The notes under the pieces are model-generated. The model had not been told where the DNA came from, did not search any database, and saw nothing but the letters and a program-made list of their open reading frames with translations. From positions 2,384,709-2,448,708 of the forward strand of contig CP043547.1 in assembly GCA_009664345.1 (NCBI GenBank): 64,000 bases of DNA, written 5' to 3'. This stretch comes from Planctomycetales bacterium 10988. Its GTDB lineage: Bacteria; Planctomycetota; Planctomycetia; Pirellulales; Pb10988. The position numbers were made by a program, and so were the translations under genes. This document shows positions 16,070-26,338 of the stretch, piece by piece (the stretch's first letter is position 1; every line of letters begins with the position of its first letter).

Positions 16070-17785
16070 TTACTTCATCGCGGTTTTCTTTTTGTTGCTG
16101 TTTTTCTTCGGATTGCTGTTCTTTCGTGGCCATTCGCTTTTGGGAATGACATGGGCTCGCTTCGCCCAAGCTTCGTACATCGCTTCCAGCTCTTTCGCTT
16201 TTTCTGGTTGCTCTTCCACTAAGTTGTTCGTCTCCGAGCGATCCGCCTTGATGTCGTACAGTTCCCAAGGTCCGGGGTTGCGACTGACCAATTTCCATTT
16301 TCCTTGGCGAACGGCCCGGTTGCCTTCGTGTTCAAAGTAGATGGCCTCTCGCTCAAGCGGCTGAGCTTCGAAAGCCGGGGCAAGACTTACGCCTTCGAGT
16401 GGAGTAATCTTTTTCCCTTTGACTTCGCTGGGATAGTCGGCATCCGCAACGTCTACACAAGTTGCCATCAGGTCAATCAAGTGACCCGGCTCGGAACGCA
16501 ACTCCCCTTTGGCCGAAAATCCCGCTGGCCAATGCACGATCAGTGGAGTAGAAATCCCGCCTTCATGGACATAATGTTTATAGAGTCGGAACGGGGTATT
16601 GCTGGAGTTGGCCCAACCGATGCCATAGCTTTGATAGGTGGTTGCCGGACCAGGCATGATGCTGGGGTCATTGCCATAGCTGACCGCTTCGCCGGATCGG
16701 GTCTTCGTCGGAACATGCAAAGGAAGCGACTTGTTGGGATTTGATTTGAGAACTTCCGCACATCCTCCGTTGTCAGCCAGAAAGAAGATCAGCGTATTTT
16801 CCAGCAGATCGTTCTTTTTCAAGGTGTTCACTATCTTGCCAATGCCGCGATCCATGACTTCAATTTGAGCGGCATACACTTCCATGCAGCGGATGAACCA
16901 AGCTTTTTCTTCGCTGGAAACTTCTTCCCAAGTCGGCACATTCTTGTCGCGTTCGGTCAAATTCCACTCGGGATGGACGATCCCCATTTCGATCATCCGT
17001 TGATAGCGTTCCGCTCGGAGGGCATCCCAACCTTGGTCATAGCGACCTTTCACTTTCTCGATATCTTCCGACATCGCATGCAGGGGCCAATGCGGAGAAG
17101 TGTAAGCAACATAAAGGAAGAACGGTTCGTCTTCGGCCTGACGAGTATGCTGTTGAATGAACCGCGAAGCCTCTCGGCTGATGGCATCGGTATAAAAATA
17201 GTCTTCGCCGCTCGGCTCAATGGGGCGATTCCCACGGCTTAACGTGGCGGGATCATAAAAACTCCCCGCTCCGTGGATCGTTCCATAAAACTTATCGAAA
17301 CCGCGTTGCAGAGGGAAATTATGTTTCGATTGTTTCTCTTCTTCCCCAGTCCAATGGCCGACTTGTTTGGTGACATGCCATTTTCCTGACATGTAAGTAT
17401 GATAGCCGGCCGGCTTCAAAACTTCGGCAATGGTCTGACAGTTTCGATTGAGATCGCCGCGATAACCAGGCACACCAAAGTCGGACATCATATGCCCAAT
17501 TCCCGCTTGATGAGGATAAAGCCCGGTCAAAAGAGAAGCACGTGTCGGGCAGCAGCGACCGGTGTTATAAAACTGCGTAAAACGCAAGCCGCCATCGGCC
17601 AAGCGATTGAGATTCGGGGTCTTGATTTCCCCTCCATAACAACCGATATCGGAGAACCCCATATCGTCGGCCATCATGATAATGATATTCGGCGGAGAAG
17701 TTTTTTCCTTCGCCCGAGCAACTTCCTGCGGAAGCAGGAGCAGAGTACAAGCCAAGAAACAAATACCGATCGAAAACTTTCGCAT
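16070..17785 (-). CDS. Secreted arylsulfatase
   Basis: Type I sulfatase that would hydrolyse sulfate esters in the periplasm or outside the cell. From the ATG at 17785 (the frame is open to 17872) there is a signal peptide ('MRKFSIGICFLACTLLLLPQ'). The catalytic core has 'NIIIMMADDMGFSDIGCYGG' with the metal-binding Asp pair (D40, D41) and the formylglycine motif CxPxR as 'RCCPTRASLLTG', where Cys78 would be converted by a formylglycine-generating enzyme. 'SGKWHVTKQVGHW' and 'DNGGC' are further family motifs. The C-terminus is a Lys/Asn-rich tail. The substrate is unknown; planctomycetes carry many such enzymes for algal sulfated polysaccharides. Confidence 0.93.
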   Translation of the reverse strand: MRKFSIGICFLACTLLLLPQEVARAKEKTSPPNIIIMMADDMGFSDIGCYGGEIKTPNLNRLADGGLRFTQFYNTGRCCPTRASLLTGLYPHQAGIGHMMSDFGVPGYRGDLNRNCQTIAEVLKPAGYHTYMSGKWHVTKQVGHWTGEEEKQSKHNFPLQRGFDKFYGTIHGAGSFYDPATLSRGNRPIEPSGEDYFYTDAISREASRFIQQHTRQAEDEPFFLYVAYTSPHWPLHAMSEDIEKVKGRYDQGWDALRAERYQRMIEMGIVHPEWNLTERDKNVPTWEEVSSEEKAWFIRCMEVYAAQIEVMDRGIGKIVNTLKKNDLLENTLIFFLADNGGCAEVLKSNPNKSLPLHVPTKTRSGEAVSYGNDPSIMPGPATTYQSYGIGWANSSNTPFRLYKHYVHEGGISTPLIVHWPAGFSAKGELRSEPGHLIDLMATCVDVADADYPSEVKGKKITPLEGVSLAPAFEAQPLEREAIYFEHEGNRAVRQGKWKLVSRNPGPWELYDIKADRSETNNLVEEQPEKAKELEAMYEAWAKRAHVIPKSEWPRKNSNPKKNSNKKKTAMK

Positions 17786-17880: not shown

Positions 17881-18822
17881 TTAATCGCGGTAATCCGAAT
17901 GGCAGGAGATACAGCCATCTTCAATTTTATAGAAAAGTTGTGTCGCTTTTTGTAATTGCTTGGCTTTGAGGGCTTCCTCAAGTTCTCCGCAAAGCTGTTC
18001 CGATTCCTTGACCAAATGGCGATATTCCACGTCTGGTTTCAGCAAACGGTGGCCTTCGCGAAAGGCTTCTTTCAGCAAGAGGGCATACTGAGCACTAGTG
18101 AGTTTTTCCTCTGGATTGGTGCGTTTCCAATCCGCGGCCCGATCTTTATCAAGTTGCAAAAAGAAACGATCGATGATCGCCATGCTGTGCGCGAACCCCG
18201 GTTCGGAAGCATCCGCCACCAGCTCGTCGGCAGAAACTGGTTTCAATTGATCCGGAGAAAAATTACTCACATCCCGCCAGAGACCTTGGTATTCCTTGGA
18301 AGTTCCAACGGTTTCCAAGATTTTCAAGGCATCTTCGTGGCTTCCCTTCCGCATGATTTGCCAGAAGATCGCCGCAGCTGCTGGCCCGCGATGTTTCCCA
18401 TGATGGCAATGCACAAAGATCGGCTTCTTTTGCGATTCGAGGACCGCCTTGAATTTCGACTTGGAATCCTCGGTGATTTCGGCATAGGTCAAAGGAATGT
18501 GAATCACCTTGATCCCATATTTTTCGGCGATCGCTTGCGAAGGGGGCAAGCTATCGACACACACAATCGTGCGAATCCCGAGCTTGGCCAAGGTCGCGAT
18601 GCCGGTTTCGCCTTCCGGTTCTGCTCCGGAAAAAAGTTGCGGATCAATTTGATGGAGATGGTGAACCCCTTCACGATCCCCCAGCGGGCAAAGATTCAAT
18701 TCGCCAGGTTTTGGAAGGGGCTCAGATTGACGAGGTTCTTCGGCAAGAAGATTAACAGAGATACATAGCAGGCAGCCAACAAACATCCAATCGCGGCGGT
18801 TCTTCATTCTCAAGAGCCTCAA
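17881..18822 (-). CDS. Secreted DSP-type phosphatase fused to a c-type cytochrome
   Basis: Unusual two-domain protein of 313 residues. A signal peptide ('MFVGCLLCISVNLLAEE') is followed by a Cys-dependent dual-specificity phosphatase-like domain at about residues 40-185. The active-site loop C-x5-R is intact, 'VHCHHGKHRG' (Cys139, Arg145), and the upstream 'IVCVDSLPPS' fits the family layout. The C-terminal 100 residues are helical and end in a haem-attachment motif CxxCH ('CISCHSDYRD', residues 304-308) right at the C-terminus, as in cytochrome c'-like four-helix bundles. It should be exported and haem-loaded. The pairing suggests a redox-linked phosphatase, but I cannot name a substrate. 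It is next to a sulfatase on the same strand. Confidence 0.85.
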   Translation of the reverse strand: MRLLRMKNRRDWMFVGCLLCISVNLLAEEPRQSEPLPKPGELNLCPLGDREGVHHLHQIDPQLFSGAEPEGETGIATLAKLGIRTIVCVDSLPPSQAIAEKYGIKVIHIPLTYAEITEDSKSKFKAVLESQKKPIFVHCHHGKHRGPAAAAIFWQIMRKGSHEDALKILETVGTSKEYQGLWRDVSNFSPDQLKPVSADELVADASEPGFAHSMAIIDRFFLQLDKDRAADWKRTNPEEKLTSAQYALLLKEAFREGHRLLKPDVEYRHLVKESEQLCGELEEALKAKQLQKATQLFYKIEDGCISCHSDYRD

Positions 18823-22668: not shown

Positions 22669-24450
22669 TTACTTTTCGCCCAAGTTGGACACTTCTGTTA
22701 TATCCGAACCACCTTTCTTCGATTCAAGTCGGATCGTAAGCGGCCCCTTCCCGGTCAGCAACCATCGTGCATAGCGAACACTGTTTCCAGGAATATTCGA
22801 AATTCGCAATTTCTCCGGATGGCGATCCTGCACGTCCGGTCGTTCAAAGAACGGTTCATCCGCACTCATGGCCGTCAAAACTTCAATCTCTTTTCCTTCT
22901 AAAACCAATAAGTCCGGTGGAGTGATCTTGTTCTTTAAATCCGTCGCCGAATGAGTGGGAATCAATTTTTCATTTTTGACAATGACTGTTAATTGATAAA
23001 GACCTTCAGACAAGGTTTCCACTTCCGAAGAAACAATCCTTACCTGCGGCATTTGGTCGGCATGATACAAAGTAAAAGCCATATTTCGATGACATTCTTC
23101 TTCCAATAAAAAAGAAGGCGGCTGCCGACCCCAACTTTTCTTCATTCCGCCGACTTCAACTTTTCCATACGTTGGATGATCCACTTCTTTCCAAGGAATA
23201 AACCCTTTTCCAAAAAGTAAATATTTATCAACCTCCGCATGGGTTTCTTGATCCCCAAAGAAGCCCCCTCCTTGATCTTCTCGAAAGTAATTAAATGGAG
23301 TGAACAACTCATTGGTAAAACTAAAAATCCCACGCATGGAATGGAACCAGTCGAATTCTCCTCCAAAGACAGTATATAGCCCTTCGGCAACATTTAAATA
23401 TTTATAACCGGGCAGTATCCGTTCTCCCTGCTTTCCTAATTTATCGTAAACAGCGATATCACTTCGAGCATAACTATCTCCTTCGGCTCCTGGTCCTCTC
23501 AAAATCATTCCGGCCGTATTGTGATAACTTTGCGCTCCAGCAATATTGGGATGTTCACTGACAAAATCTGCAACGTAACGATTTTCTAAAATAGAAAAAG
23601 GATAATGCCCGGCACCACGTTGAATATAACTCGGTTGCCACTGCCAAGCCCAATCACGGTTCGGATCATAATAGCCATCGCCATCTTCATTGACTTTTCC
23701 ATCGCCATCGTTGTCAATTCCTTCATAACCTAACAGTCTATATTCCCCTTCCTCTTCCGGTTTCTTCCGTATGAGAATTTGGGGATAGTCAGGATGTGTT
23801 TTATAATTTCCATGGGGGTCTTTCACACGCATTTGAGTGATATGCCCATCGTTATTTAAATCATCGTAGCCATCTTCATCGACGAGCCCATCTCGATCAT
23901 CATCAACAGGTCGTTGACCGGTCCGAGGGCCATGGGTGGTGTTTGGTTGATTGAAATGTTCCGCCCGCGAATCGGGACTCATCATGGGAACGCAATAGAA
24001 GGTTCGTTCCTTCAGCAAGGTTTGCAGAAAGGGACTATCTTCCTCCGCTTCACACAAATACCAAATAGTATAGAGAACCACCTCGACCGTTTGAATTTCA
24101 TTGGCATGGATTCCACCATCTATATAAAAGGCGGGCTTTTGATCAGCCTTTCCTTCCTGAAAGTTGGTGACCGTCGCCAACCACATTTCACGTTCGCCGT
24201 AAGACTTTCCCAAAGTTGTCAACTTCATTCGCTCAGGGTGAGCTTCCGCAAGTTTTTTTAATATTTGAGTCGCCTCTTCATAATTATAAAAGTGGTTCCA
24301 ACTCACCTCGACCTTGGGATTCATGGGTGCCCCAATCGGTCGATAGGCCGGAGTTTCCTCCGCAGATAACTTTTGTTGAGCGGTAAAACCTGACATTCCC
24401 AGCAGGCATCCGACCGCTATCAAAGTCCACATTTTATTTTGAAAGAACAT
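22669..24450 (-). CDS. Secreted M14 zinc carboxypeptidase
   Basis: A 593-residue exported M14-family metallopeptidase; the start has an AGGAAACGAG purine run upstream. The signal peptide is 'MWTLIAVGCLLGMSGFTA'. Zinc ligands are visible: H115 and E118 in 'DGGIHANEIQ' (HxxE) and H310 in 'AGAQSYHNTAG'. The catalytic Glu probably lies in 'FSFTNELFTPF'. The domain is interrupted by Asp-rich loops ('DDDRDGLVDEDGYDDLNNDG', 'GIDNDGDGKVNEDGDG') resembling calcium-binding DxDxDG repeats. It would trim C-terminal residues from peptides or peptidoglycan outside the cytoplasm. It is followed on the same strand by a non-catalytic paralogue at 24515. Confidence 0.9.
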   Translation of the reverse strand: MFFQNKMWTLIAVGCLLGMSGFTAQQKLSAEETPAYRPIGAPMNPKVEVSWNHFYNYEEATQILKKLAEAHPERMKLTTLGKSYGEREMWLATVTNFQEGKADQKPAFYIDGGIHANEIQTVEVVLYTIWYLCEAEEDSPFLQTLLKERTFYCVPMMSPDSRAEHFNQPNTTHGPRTGQRPVDDDRDGLVDEDGYDDLNNDGHITQMRVKDPHGNYKTHPDYPQILIRKKPEEEGEYRLLGYEGIDNDGDGKVNEDGDGYYDPNRDWAWQWQPSYIQRGAGHYPFSILENRYVADFVSEHPNIAGAQSYHNTAGMILRGPGAEGDSYARSDIAVYDKLGKQGERILPGYKYLNVAEGLYTVFGGEFDWFHSMRGIFSFTNELFTPFNYFREDQGGGFFGDQETHAEVDKYLLFGKGFIPWKEVDHPTYGKVEVGGMKKSWGRQPPSFLLEEECHRNMAFTLYHADQMPQVRIVSSEVETLSEGLYQLTVIVKNEKLIPTHSATDLKNKITPPDLLVLEGKEIEVLTAMSADEPFFERPDVQDRHPEKLRISNIPGNSVRYARWLLTGKGPLTIRLESKKGGSDITEVSNLGEK

Positions 24451-24514
24451 TCTCTCGTTTCCTAGCTATAAAGTGTCTTGCGCTTTTGAATCCCTACGAT
24501 TGTTGTTTCGCCTA

Positions 24515-26338
24515 CTATTTCTTTTCCGAATTCAACTTTTGTGTTTTAGAAACAGGATGTATTGAAGGACCAAACACCTTGACGGTGATTTCTTCAGGAC
24601 TCTGATCAGGAAAACGGACCAGCCAAGTCAAAGTGCGCGATCCCCCCTTCCCTTTTAAAACTCGAAGTTCTTGTCGGCGATGCCCCGTAATCCAAAGCGT
24701 ATCTTTCGGCAAATCAAGTTCAATTTGAAGAGGATAGGGAATGCCATTGATGCGCCCCATCTCACTCATGGTTGGTAAATAACCTTGGTTCAAAACTTCC
24801 ACTTCAATTTTAGTGACGCCTTTTCCCAACGAATCGATTTTTATTTGATTCACTTTCATGTCAGGAAAAAGTTGAAGGAGTTCCTTTAAAAAATTGACAT
24901 GAGGGACAACGAGTTCTTCCAGTTGATCGATGGGCGGGTTTTCGATGAGAAAAGTTTTAAAGCCTCCCACTTCTACTTTTTGACCAGGGAAGTCGGGATG
25001 CTGAATCGCCTCCCAACTAACAAAACCATCAATTCCATTTTCTTTTAACCATTTTAAACGATCACGATCTTCCTTCCCTCGCTTTTCTAAGGAAGGGTCT
25101 TTCCTTTCCTCCTTCTTTGAATCCTCACTCTCTGACTCTTCTACTTTCTTTTCTTTCTCTTCATGAGAGTTTTTATCCTCCTGCTCCTGTTCCTCTTCGG
25201 AAGCGTCTTCTTTCTTCTCTTCTTTTACTTCTGAAAGAGTGATCCACCAAGCGGGTGAAGCGAAACTCCAGCGACCAAAATGAAAGTAAGCCCATCTCAC
25301 AAAGGAACCTTCGCCAGAGCTTGCCGAGGGAGCTTTCTTTAAAGGTTGAACCTTTTGATATTTTTTTGCAATCCAATCAAAGTAATCGACATCTGCGGTC
25401 AACAGAGTCTTTTTAATCCGATTTTTCTCGGCGTTACGATCAGCTTTCCAAGGGTGCATCAAATTGTCTTCGGGAGCAAAACTAAAACAAGCGACGACTT
25501 CAGGATGTTTATAGAGAAAATCAATGATCGCTCTAGTCTCCGGTTCAGAAACTTGATGAGGACCGGCGTATTGATCAAAGTAGGGATATGCAAAAGTAAA
25601 GTTTTGATTGAAGTTGGTTCCACCTGATCCATCTTCATTCCAGGCTTCATCCTGATCATTATCTTTTCCTTCTATGTAAAGCGTAAACTTTCCCTCTTCG
25701 TCTTTTCCCGGATTCGCTTTAATTAACACTCTGACATCATCCGGGTGGGACATCCACTCGCCACTTGCCTCGCTTACCCGCATTTGTGTAATCCACCCGT
25801 CTTGATTTAAATCTTCTGCCGGGTCTTCATCGATTGCTCCATCGCGATCGGTGTCTGAAGGCCGGGTGTTTTCTACCTTTGCTTGATATGGTTTTTGAAA
25901 GAAGGCTTCGCTTGCATCCGGGCTGGGACAAGGCACGAAATAAATAGTGTGATCTGTCAATAATTGTTGAATCGACTTCTCTTCTTCAACTTGATTTAAC
26001 AATTCATCCGCAACCATGAAACATAACTCCCGGCCTACTAAGCTAGAAGCTTTTACATTCCCTAACACAAACAAAGCCGGTTTGGTTGCTTCTTCGTCCT
26101 TTGACAAAGTAAGTAACCAAATATCCCGTCCTTCTCTTGTTTTTCCCAGGGATTTCATAGTCGCCCAAGGAGACATTGTCAGTTTTTCTAGGCGTGTTTC
26201 GTATTGTGAAAAATCACGATAACCGGCAACGGCTTCCAGTTGTGCAGAGACCGGAGATGCTTGATAGCTAAAGAAAAGTAAACAGATAAATAAATAAGAA
26301 TAGATGATCCAACTTGGTTTGATCGTTCGATATTTCAT
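24515..26338 (-). CDS. M14 carboxypeptidase homologue without zinc ligands
   Basis: A 607-residue secreted paralogue of the next gene (signal peptide 'WIIYSYLFICLLFFSYQASP'; start preceded by GAGAGGAAG). The order of blocks matches, including the Asp-rich loops ('DTDRDGAIDEDPAEDLNQDG'). The HxxE motif is gone: the aligned segment reads 'LGNVKASSLVG', so His becomes Lys and Glu becomes Ser. The third ligand is also lost ('ACFSFAPEDNL' in place of 'SYHNTAG'). An acidic, Lys/Glu-rich insertion ('KEEKKEDASEEEQEQEDK') interrupts the C-terminal part. It is probably a pseudo-enzyme that binds substrate or partners the active paralogue. It is upstream of the active copy, 64 bp apart. Confidence 0.85.
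   Translation of the reverse strand: MKYRTIKPSWIIYSYLFICLLFFSYQASPVSAQLEAVAGYRDFSQYETRLEKLTMSPWATMKSLGKTREGRDIWLLTLSKDEEATKPALFVLGNVKASSLVGRELCFMVADELLNQVEEEKSIQQLLTDHTIYFVPCPSPDASEAFFQKPYQAKVENTRPSDTDRDGAIDEDPAEDLNQDGWITQMRVSEASGEWMSHPDDVRVLIKANPGKDEEGKFTLYIEGKDNDQDEAWNEDGSGGTNFNQNFTFAYPYFDQYAGPHQVSEPETRAIIDFLYKHPEVVACFSFAPEDNLMHPWKADRNAEKNRIKKTLLTADVDYFDWIAKKYQKVQPLKKAPSASSGEGSFVRWAYFHFGRWSFASPAWWITLSEVKEEKKEDASEEEQEQEDKNSHEEKEKKVEESESEDSKKEERKDPSLEKRGKEDRDRLKWLKENGIDGFVSWEAIQHPDFPGQKVEVGGFKTFLIENPPIDQLEELVVPHVNFLKELLQLFPDMKVNQIKIDSLGKGVTKIEVEVLNQGYLPTMSEMGRINGIPYPLQIELDLPKDTLWITGHRRQELRVLKGKGGSRTLTWLVRFPDQSPEEITVKVFGPSIHPVSKTQKLNSEKK

Follow-up and report, generated by a model that had tools for sequence, protein, structure and literature searches.

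A probably exported planctomycete protein that joins a cysteine-phosphatase fold to a C-terminal haem c domain, and the family to which it belongs

The window, by which we mean the whole stretch of 64,000 nucleotides of Planctomycetales bacterium 10988 that was analysed, carries on its minus strand a gene whose product combines a phosphatase loop with a haem c motif close to its C-terminus (Table 1). The ATG is likely a better start for this gene than the TTG. The N-terminus of the protein is hydrophobic, continues into LLAEEP and by eye resembles a Sec signal peptide, and in the AF2 model the pLDDT of residues 1-20 is about 50. A crude text scan, which is not a signal-peptide prediction, found a hydrophobic 12-mer in the N-terminal part of 121, and a lipobox-like pattern in that of 84, of the 133 full-length family members described below; these counts are in line with export of the family, and the protein itself is probably exported. 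The search of its own genome returned a single full match; at E <=1 it gave one further match, of 45 residues (E 0.4). Downstream on the same strand lies a gene which by eye is of sulfatase type (16070-17785, minus) and which begins 95 bases past the stop codon if the ATG at 17785 is its start; sulfatases are abundant in such genomes, and this one carries no inference. Two tandem large proteins encoded at 22669-26338 (minus) resemble M14-type carboxypeptidases by eye and have Asp-rich inserts that look like calcium loops.

Table 1. Features of the phosphatase-cytochrome gene and its product (positions in the window; residues numbered from the ATG start)
Feature	Position	Strand	Remark or basis
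Open reading frame	17881-18822	minus	TTG start at 18822, 313 aa
Same gene, likelier start	17881..18807	minus	ATG at 18807, 308 aa; basis of residue numbering
Stop codon TAA	17881-17883	minus	
Putative Sec signal peptide, residues 1 to about 25 (MKNRRDWMFVGCLLCISVNLLA-EEP)	18733..18807	minus	by eye
PTP/DSP-fold domain, residues 40-193	18229..18690	minus	PF22741 and PF22784 over cut-off; fold matches
Asp85, aligned with PRL-1 residue 49, beside the pocket	18553..18555	minus	alignment to 9mex
Acid-loop segment T107-Y108-A109-E110	18478..18489	minus	profile alignment; 109 opposite TpbA Asp105
PTP loop H133-C134-H-H-G-K-H-R140, then G141-P142	18388..18411	minus	read codon by codon
Class II cytochrome c domain, residues 203-308, four helices	17884..18201	minus	model, fold and profile matches
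Met209, predicted sixth (axial) haem ligand, first helix of haem domain	18181..18183	minus	invariance and register
Haem c motif C299-I-S-C302-H303, five residues from C-terminus	17899..17913	minus	read codon by codon

Structure prediction, which an earlier note on this DNA had proposed as a check, gave a whole-protein AF2 model with a PTP-fold domain and a four-helix haem domain (mean pLDDT 88.6, pTM 0.82, from a 17-row alignment). In comparison by VIA-align, residues 40-193 matched VHZ 2img with Z 17.4 (rmsd 2.1, 140 aligned) and TpbA 4r0s with Z 16.7 (rmsd 3.1, 153 aligned). TpbA 4r0s was also the top Foldseek match of the phosphatase part (E 4.8e-7), TpbA 2m3v was its top profile match (E 7e-8), and PRL 9mex was also matched by profile (E 2.8e-5). 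Two Pfam models, PTP-NADK (30.0 bits) and PTP-SAK (29.9 bits), exceeded their common cut-off of 27. The PTP fold and the HC-x5-R loop, which together mark the cysteine-based phosphatases of the PTP/DSP superfamily, were thus both found, with a pLDDT of 96 for the loop region 131-140. Two narrower assignments were rejected, namely PFA-DSP or PF03162 (21.8 bits against a Pfam cut-off of 27) and the sulfur-transferase model TIGR01244 (25.4 bits against an NCBIfam cut-off of 85.85); NCBIfam gave no model over its cut-off for the protein, and none of the models of Pfam or NCBIfam matched it over both domains. TpbA, the periplasmic dual-specificity phosphatase of Pseudomonas aeruginosa, is likewise exported, as the present protein probably is, and shares the PTP fold and the HCx5R loop, but its entries hold no haem domain and its acid-loop Asp105, named in the excerpt of PMC4409338, is Ala here.

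The predicted four-helix bundle with a CxxCH near its C-terminus has the features by which class II cytochromes c are recognised. The Pfam model of that class, Cytochrom_C_2 (PF01322), gave the protein 18.9 bits, where 26.5 would be needed, while two relatives (L145 and L146) scored 30.2 and 30.0 bits. Modelled alone, with an alignment that took 48 of the 97 available rows, the haem domain reached a pLDDT of 91.6. Its best structural match was NaxLS, the Kusta0087/Kusta0088 complex of the anammox planctomycete Kuenenia, with Z 14.5 for residues 202-308 of the whole-protein model (rmsd 2.4, 104 aligned) and Z 14.7, 14.5 and 14.4 for the lone domain (best 6r6o, rmsd 2.3, 104 aligned), in comparison to Z 12.5-13.3 for the cytochrome c' rows and 12.5-13.0 for the b562/cb562 rows. 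Because the best Z of a helical model is typically about 14, such values say little by themselves, and the match to NaxLS draws its weight from the sequence profile and the CxxCH motif: the profile matches were cytochrome c' 8rkp (E 1e-5), cb562 5awi (E 1.4e-5) and NaxLS 6r6n (E 7.7e-4), and the position of the CxxCH agrees between the domain and the matched cytochromes. GPCR and other chains also appeared among the structure matches; one of these, 8hii, is a BRIL (b562) fusion by its title, and the further chains presumably are as well, at least in part. The comparison with NaxLS concerns the fold alone, since NaxLS is a stand-alone heterodimer without a phosphatase and has Cys at residue 32 where Met209 stands here. 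Cytochrome c' (PF01322) and cytochrome b562 resemble the domain in being four-helix bundles, in the placing of the haem motif close to the C-terminus and in a conserved Arg at the fourth residue past the His; cytochrome c' is without a sixth protein ligand, and the haem of natural b562 is non-covalent. Elsewhere in the window's own genome (L256:431-2520, minus, on G000:C1 at about 5.927 Mb), two adjoining open reading frames of 336 and 340 aa have the class II-like C-termini CDTCHGSYR and CDSCHGTYR, and no HCx5R loop was seen in them by eye.

The relatives search matched 25 of 57 genomes at E <=1e-3, the genome of origin included, and besides its own copy 16 matches ran nearly full length to the haem motif. 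In a phylum sample of 392 genomes, 140 matched at E <=1e-20, giving 141 places; when these were re-scored with a two-domain profile, 133, with the window's own copy (L048) among them, were full length in the sense that they reached position 276 of the 282 in the profile, where the haem motif lies. The eight remaining rows were inspected singly: three are cut by contig ends (L154, L155 and, judged by contig position, L248) and five are phosphatase-only (L148, L149, L151, L152 and L153). One of the latter (L151:2554-3507, minus) is 318 aa long and has the loop HCHHGKHR; a signal peptide is not obvious in it, and by eye it contains a second stretch that is phosphatase-like but degenerate. Among the 133 full-length members Cys134, Arg140, Cys299, Cys302, His303, Met209 and Tyr108 are invariant, His133 is kept in 132, Asp85 in 131, His139 in 130 and His135 in 92 (Phe in 37); even L147, with the degenerate loop TCETGRDR, retains the Cys, the Arg and the haem motif. 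An invariant His pair, which had been considered, was dropped on the count for His135 in this HMM-drawn set; the 97-sequence table is biased on this point, as HCHHG stood in one scan pattern and frames were chosen by that loop.

With conserved motifs in 133 full-length members at 141 matched places, the two-domain architecture is not a product of chance and can be regarded as firm. The same conservation rules out a chance CxxCH or a chance juxtaposition, and the occurrence of this architecture in many separate genomes rules out a frameshift or an assembly chimera. The earlier note had described a C-x5-R loop and a CxxCH motif in one signal-peptide-bearing protein and had asked for a domain-architecture search; the codon-by-codon reading and the phylum sample bear out that both motifs stand in one frame, and the Pfam matches, AF2 fold matches and family conservation support the presence of both a phosphatase-fold domain and a haem c domain in a single, probably exported chain. 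Across 84,980 species genomes, a scan matched at least 590 stretches, of which at least 523 encode a relative. By the taxon labels in the records, the best 80 of these at least 523, which were retained, include 56 Planctomycetota, 14 Verrucomicrobiota, 2 Hydrogenedentota and 1 each of Lentisphaerales, Bacteroidales, Abditibacteriales and Sumerlaeota. All of the best 80 have a CxxCH beginning 9-22 residues before the frame end; this motif was absent from the scan patterns, but taking the best 80 favours full-length members, and the HCHHG loop in the set is partly there by construction of the scan and of the frame choice.

The likely ligation of the haem was read from the register of the structural alignments. 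The NaxLS rows start at model residue 202/203, or at domain residue 7/8 of the lone model, against chain residue 25/26, and both offsets place Met209 on NaxLS residue 32, which is mutated in 6r6o (C32G) and 6r6n (C32M/C101M) and whose Cys we take, going only by these mutant names, to be a haem ligand (His/Cys ligation). The b562 rows (domain residue 8 against 1) place Met209 on b562 residue 7, presumably the axial Met ligand of that haem. The register was taken from the end residues of the aligned ranges only, so that a gap inside the helix is possible, and the register of the HMM alignment to b562 differs from it by three residues; in the excerpt of PMC8388095 no haem ligand is stated for NaxLS. 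With Met209 invariant in every full-length member at the register of a sixth ligand, an open site of the cytochrome c' type, the type that the earlier note had named for this domain, is improbable, and a six-coordinate His303/Met209 haem is our best prediction from sequence and model. The same residue makes it very unlikely that the protein is a sensor of NO or CO, in which ligand binding at an open or opening c'-like site would switch the phosphatase; such a sensor would suit the fold matches to cytochrome c' and to NaxLS, which the excerpt of PMC11897245 terms a nitric oxide-binding complex, and NO could still displace the Met. The genome holds ResB-type and CcsA-type matches about 2 kb apart, a pair which corresponds to the needs of haem c attachment by system II, and the protein may be loaded with haem.

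Ordinary dual-specificity phosphatases use an acid-loop Asp and a Ser/Thr after the loop Arg for turnover. Here residue 109 is Ala, with Glu110 adjacent, and residue 141 is Gly, so that the suggestion of an intact phosphatase holds for the loop, but not for these two aids. Within the family, Asp109 is present in 73 and absent in 60 of the 133 members, 21 of the 60 having some acidic residue within 106-112, and residue 141 is Gly in 105, Ser in 25 and Ala in 3, so that 108 members have the non-Ser/Thr residue after the loop Arg that is typical of PRL (PTP4A) phosphatases. Asp109 and Ser/Thr141 occur together in 19 members, Asp109 only in 54, Ser/Thr141 only in 6 and neither in 54. In a quick, midpoint-rooted tree of 141 rows, in which the window replaces L048 and the phosphatase-only and cut rows are included, the Asp109 label requires 18 changes, at least 9 of them forced by starred branches; the position of the window row is unsure because its branch is long (1.62). 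It is a safe statement from these alignments that the Cys and the Arg are strictly constrained in the family and that the usual turnover aids are not. Another acid may serve, because in the HMM alignment Asp72 of PRL-1 lies opposite the invariant Tyr108, and not opposite residue 109, while its residue 49 aligns with Asp85; Glu110, Asp85 or Tyr108 might thus be the substitute.

The published kinetics give an indication of what such a loop would do. In TpbA, Asp105 is the likely general acid, and D105A cuts catalytic efficiency by 53%, according to the excerpt of PMC4409338. The PRLs, whose R-x-P following the loop likewise holds a residue other than Ser/Thr (Ala in comparison to Gly here), have a phosphocysteine lifetime of more than 1 h, and one stable for weeks when the Asp is also removed (excerpt of PMC12192612), and their turnover is less than 1 per hour (excerpt of PMC10040874). 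With its PRL-like residue after the loop Arg, the present protein would be expected to turn its phosphocysteine over slowly, and as the acid-loop Asp is also missing, this intermediate is probably long-lived, as in PRLs. The likeness has its bounds, since PRLs are described in the same excerpt of PMC10040874 as animal-type, prenylated and membrane-bound; they have no haem, and their redox-active Cys49 corresponds to Asp85 here. The PRLs can, in that source, also act as pseudo-phosphatases, which raises the question whether the pocket of the present protein binds a phosphorylated or acidic partner while the haem reports the redox state, with no useful catalysis. This fits a protein that, like 54 of the 133 members, has neither Asp109 nor Ser/Thr141, but we consider it improbable in view of the complete conservation of Cys134, Arg140 and Tyr108 and the near-complete conservation of Asp85.

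The neighbourhood gave little to name a substrate. Clustering of the neighbours of 80 loci and the window found no conserved operon, the largest neighbour clusters covering 8 of 80 loci, and no recurrent neighbour among the 80 loci that points to a substrate; since many contigs are short and the central gene fell outside its own cluster in 13 of 80 loci, a modest degree of linkage may have escaped this clustering. One of the 8-locus clusters is ABC-ATPase-like by eye and lies at scattered distances; another is an esterase adjoining the alkaline-phosphatase cases. Alkaline phosphatase is associated in 7 of 80 loci by the same clustering: it is a separate upstream gene in L071, L075 and L092, partial in L073, and joined N-terminally to the phosphatase-haem module in L077 (8195-10813, plus), L083 and L087, the Pfam score being 140.1 bits in L077 and 150.2 bits in L071, and L083 and L087 being assigned by similarity cluster. 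In two related genomes a glutathione-peroxidase domain (PF00255) is fused upstream, at L157:2338-3825 (plus, 134.0 bits) and L158:2287-3822 (plus, 138.4 bits), its Cys being present by eye in both. Single fusions are NPCBM in L009, a nucleoside transporter in L143, and a 3-keto-disaccharide hydrolase with GDSL in L086 (counted once together with L006, whose contig is equally long), and L147 has by eye an exchanger-like N-terminus; L141, L142, L144, L145, L146, L150 and L159, whose long upstream part has no Pfam domain, were not counted as fusions. The alkaline phosphatase and glutathione-peroxidase fusions associate the module with phosphoester and thiol-redox chemistry, but the N-terminal partners are diverse, which would suit a plain tether too.

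The wide variation of these partners, and the finding that alkaline phosphatase is separate in L071, L075 and L092 but fused in L077, would suit two independent functions, in which a domain that acts as a phosphatase or binds phosphate outside the cytoplasm and a cytochrome that shuttles electrons in the ordinary way are joined for co-location only. Bacteria of the PVC group do couple c-type haem domains to other domains, as in the PSCyt proteins of planctomycetes and verrucomicrobia described in the excerpt of PMC5615132, so that haem c fusions as such are already known there and both domains of the present protein are of known kinds; no PSCyt model of Pfam matched it, however, and its haem domain has the class II fold. 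Retention of both domains at 133 of 141 matched places, with phosphatase-only rows at five, speaks against independence, which we hold to be rather unlikely, though it is the likeliest of the alternatives. The five phosphatase-only rows cluster apart from the haem-bearing rows, but because the tree is midpoint-rooted, with support 90 and long branches, this grouping says little about loss.

A somewhat less likely alternative is that Cys134, in a PTP-like anion pocket, binds sulfur species and passes electrons to the haem c, by analogy with the chemistry of SoxAX and TsdA, which would make the protein a thiol or persulfide oxidoreductase. The weak likeness to TIGR01244, the dispensability of the acid-loop Asp in the family, the suitability of a His/Met haem for electron transfer and the glutathione-peroxidase-type fusion all agree with it; the TIGR01244 score is nevertheless far under the cut-off, the loop and fold are nearest to phosphatases, and the alkaline phosphatase fusion points to phosphate.

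We therefore return to a haem-coupled, slow, PRL-like exported cysteine phosphatase, a reading that we favour tentatively and as quite possible. In this reading the PTP-fold domain would take phosphate from an extracytoplasmic phosphoester onto Cys134, where the phosphocysteine would probably be long-lived, like that of the PRLs. The haem domain would carry a covalent, probably six-coordinate His303/Met209 haem which swaps electrons with the periplasmic pool, and the haem would set the state of Cys134 (usable thiolate or oxidised), so that phosphatase output would track the redox state. Tuning of the phosphatase by the haem domain, or relay of electrons, had been raised in the earlier note, and we too can only infer it. 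Read as a switch, the phosphate captured by Cys134 and the redox state of the adjacent His/Met haem c might control each other, and extracytoplasmic phosphate chemistry might be read out or gated by electron flow. That such haem-coupled phosphocysteine switches are widespread in PVC and neighbouring bacteria is a more doubtful proposition, possible but on balance unlikely.

A description of a phosphatase-haem c fusion was not found in the open-licence literature, which agrees with the remark that no characterised example was known. If the two sites are coupled, this would to our knowledge be the first enzyme whose single chain ties a cysteine phosphatase to a redox centre of haem c. Work on PRLs shows that a phosphocysteine which turns over slowly can in itself have a regulatory role, and here a built-in haem would read or set that turnover. 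The recurrence of the design in many Planctomycetota and in some other bacteria hints that phosphate chemistry and electron transfer are connected in a way that has received little study.
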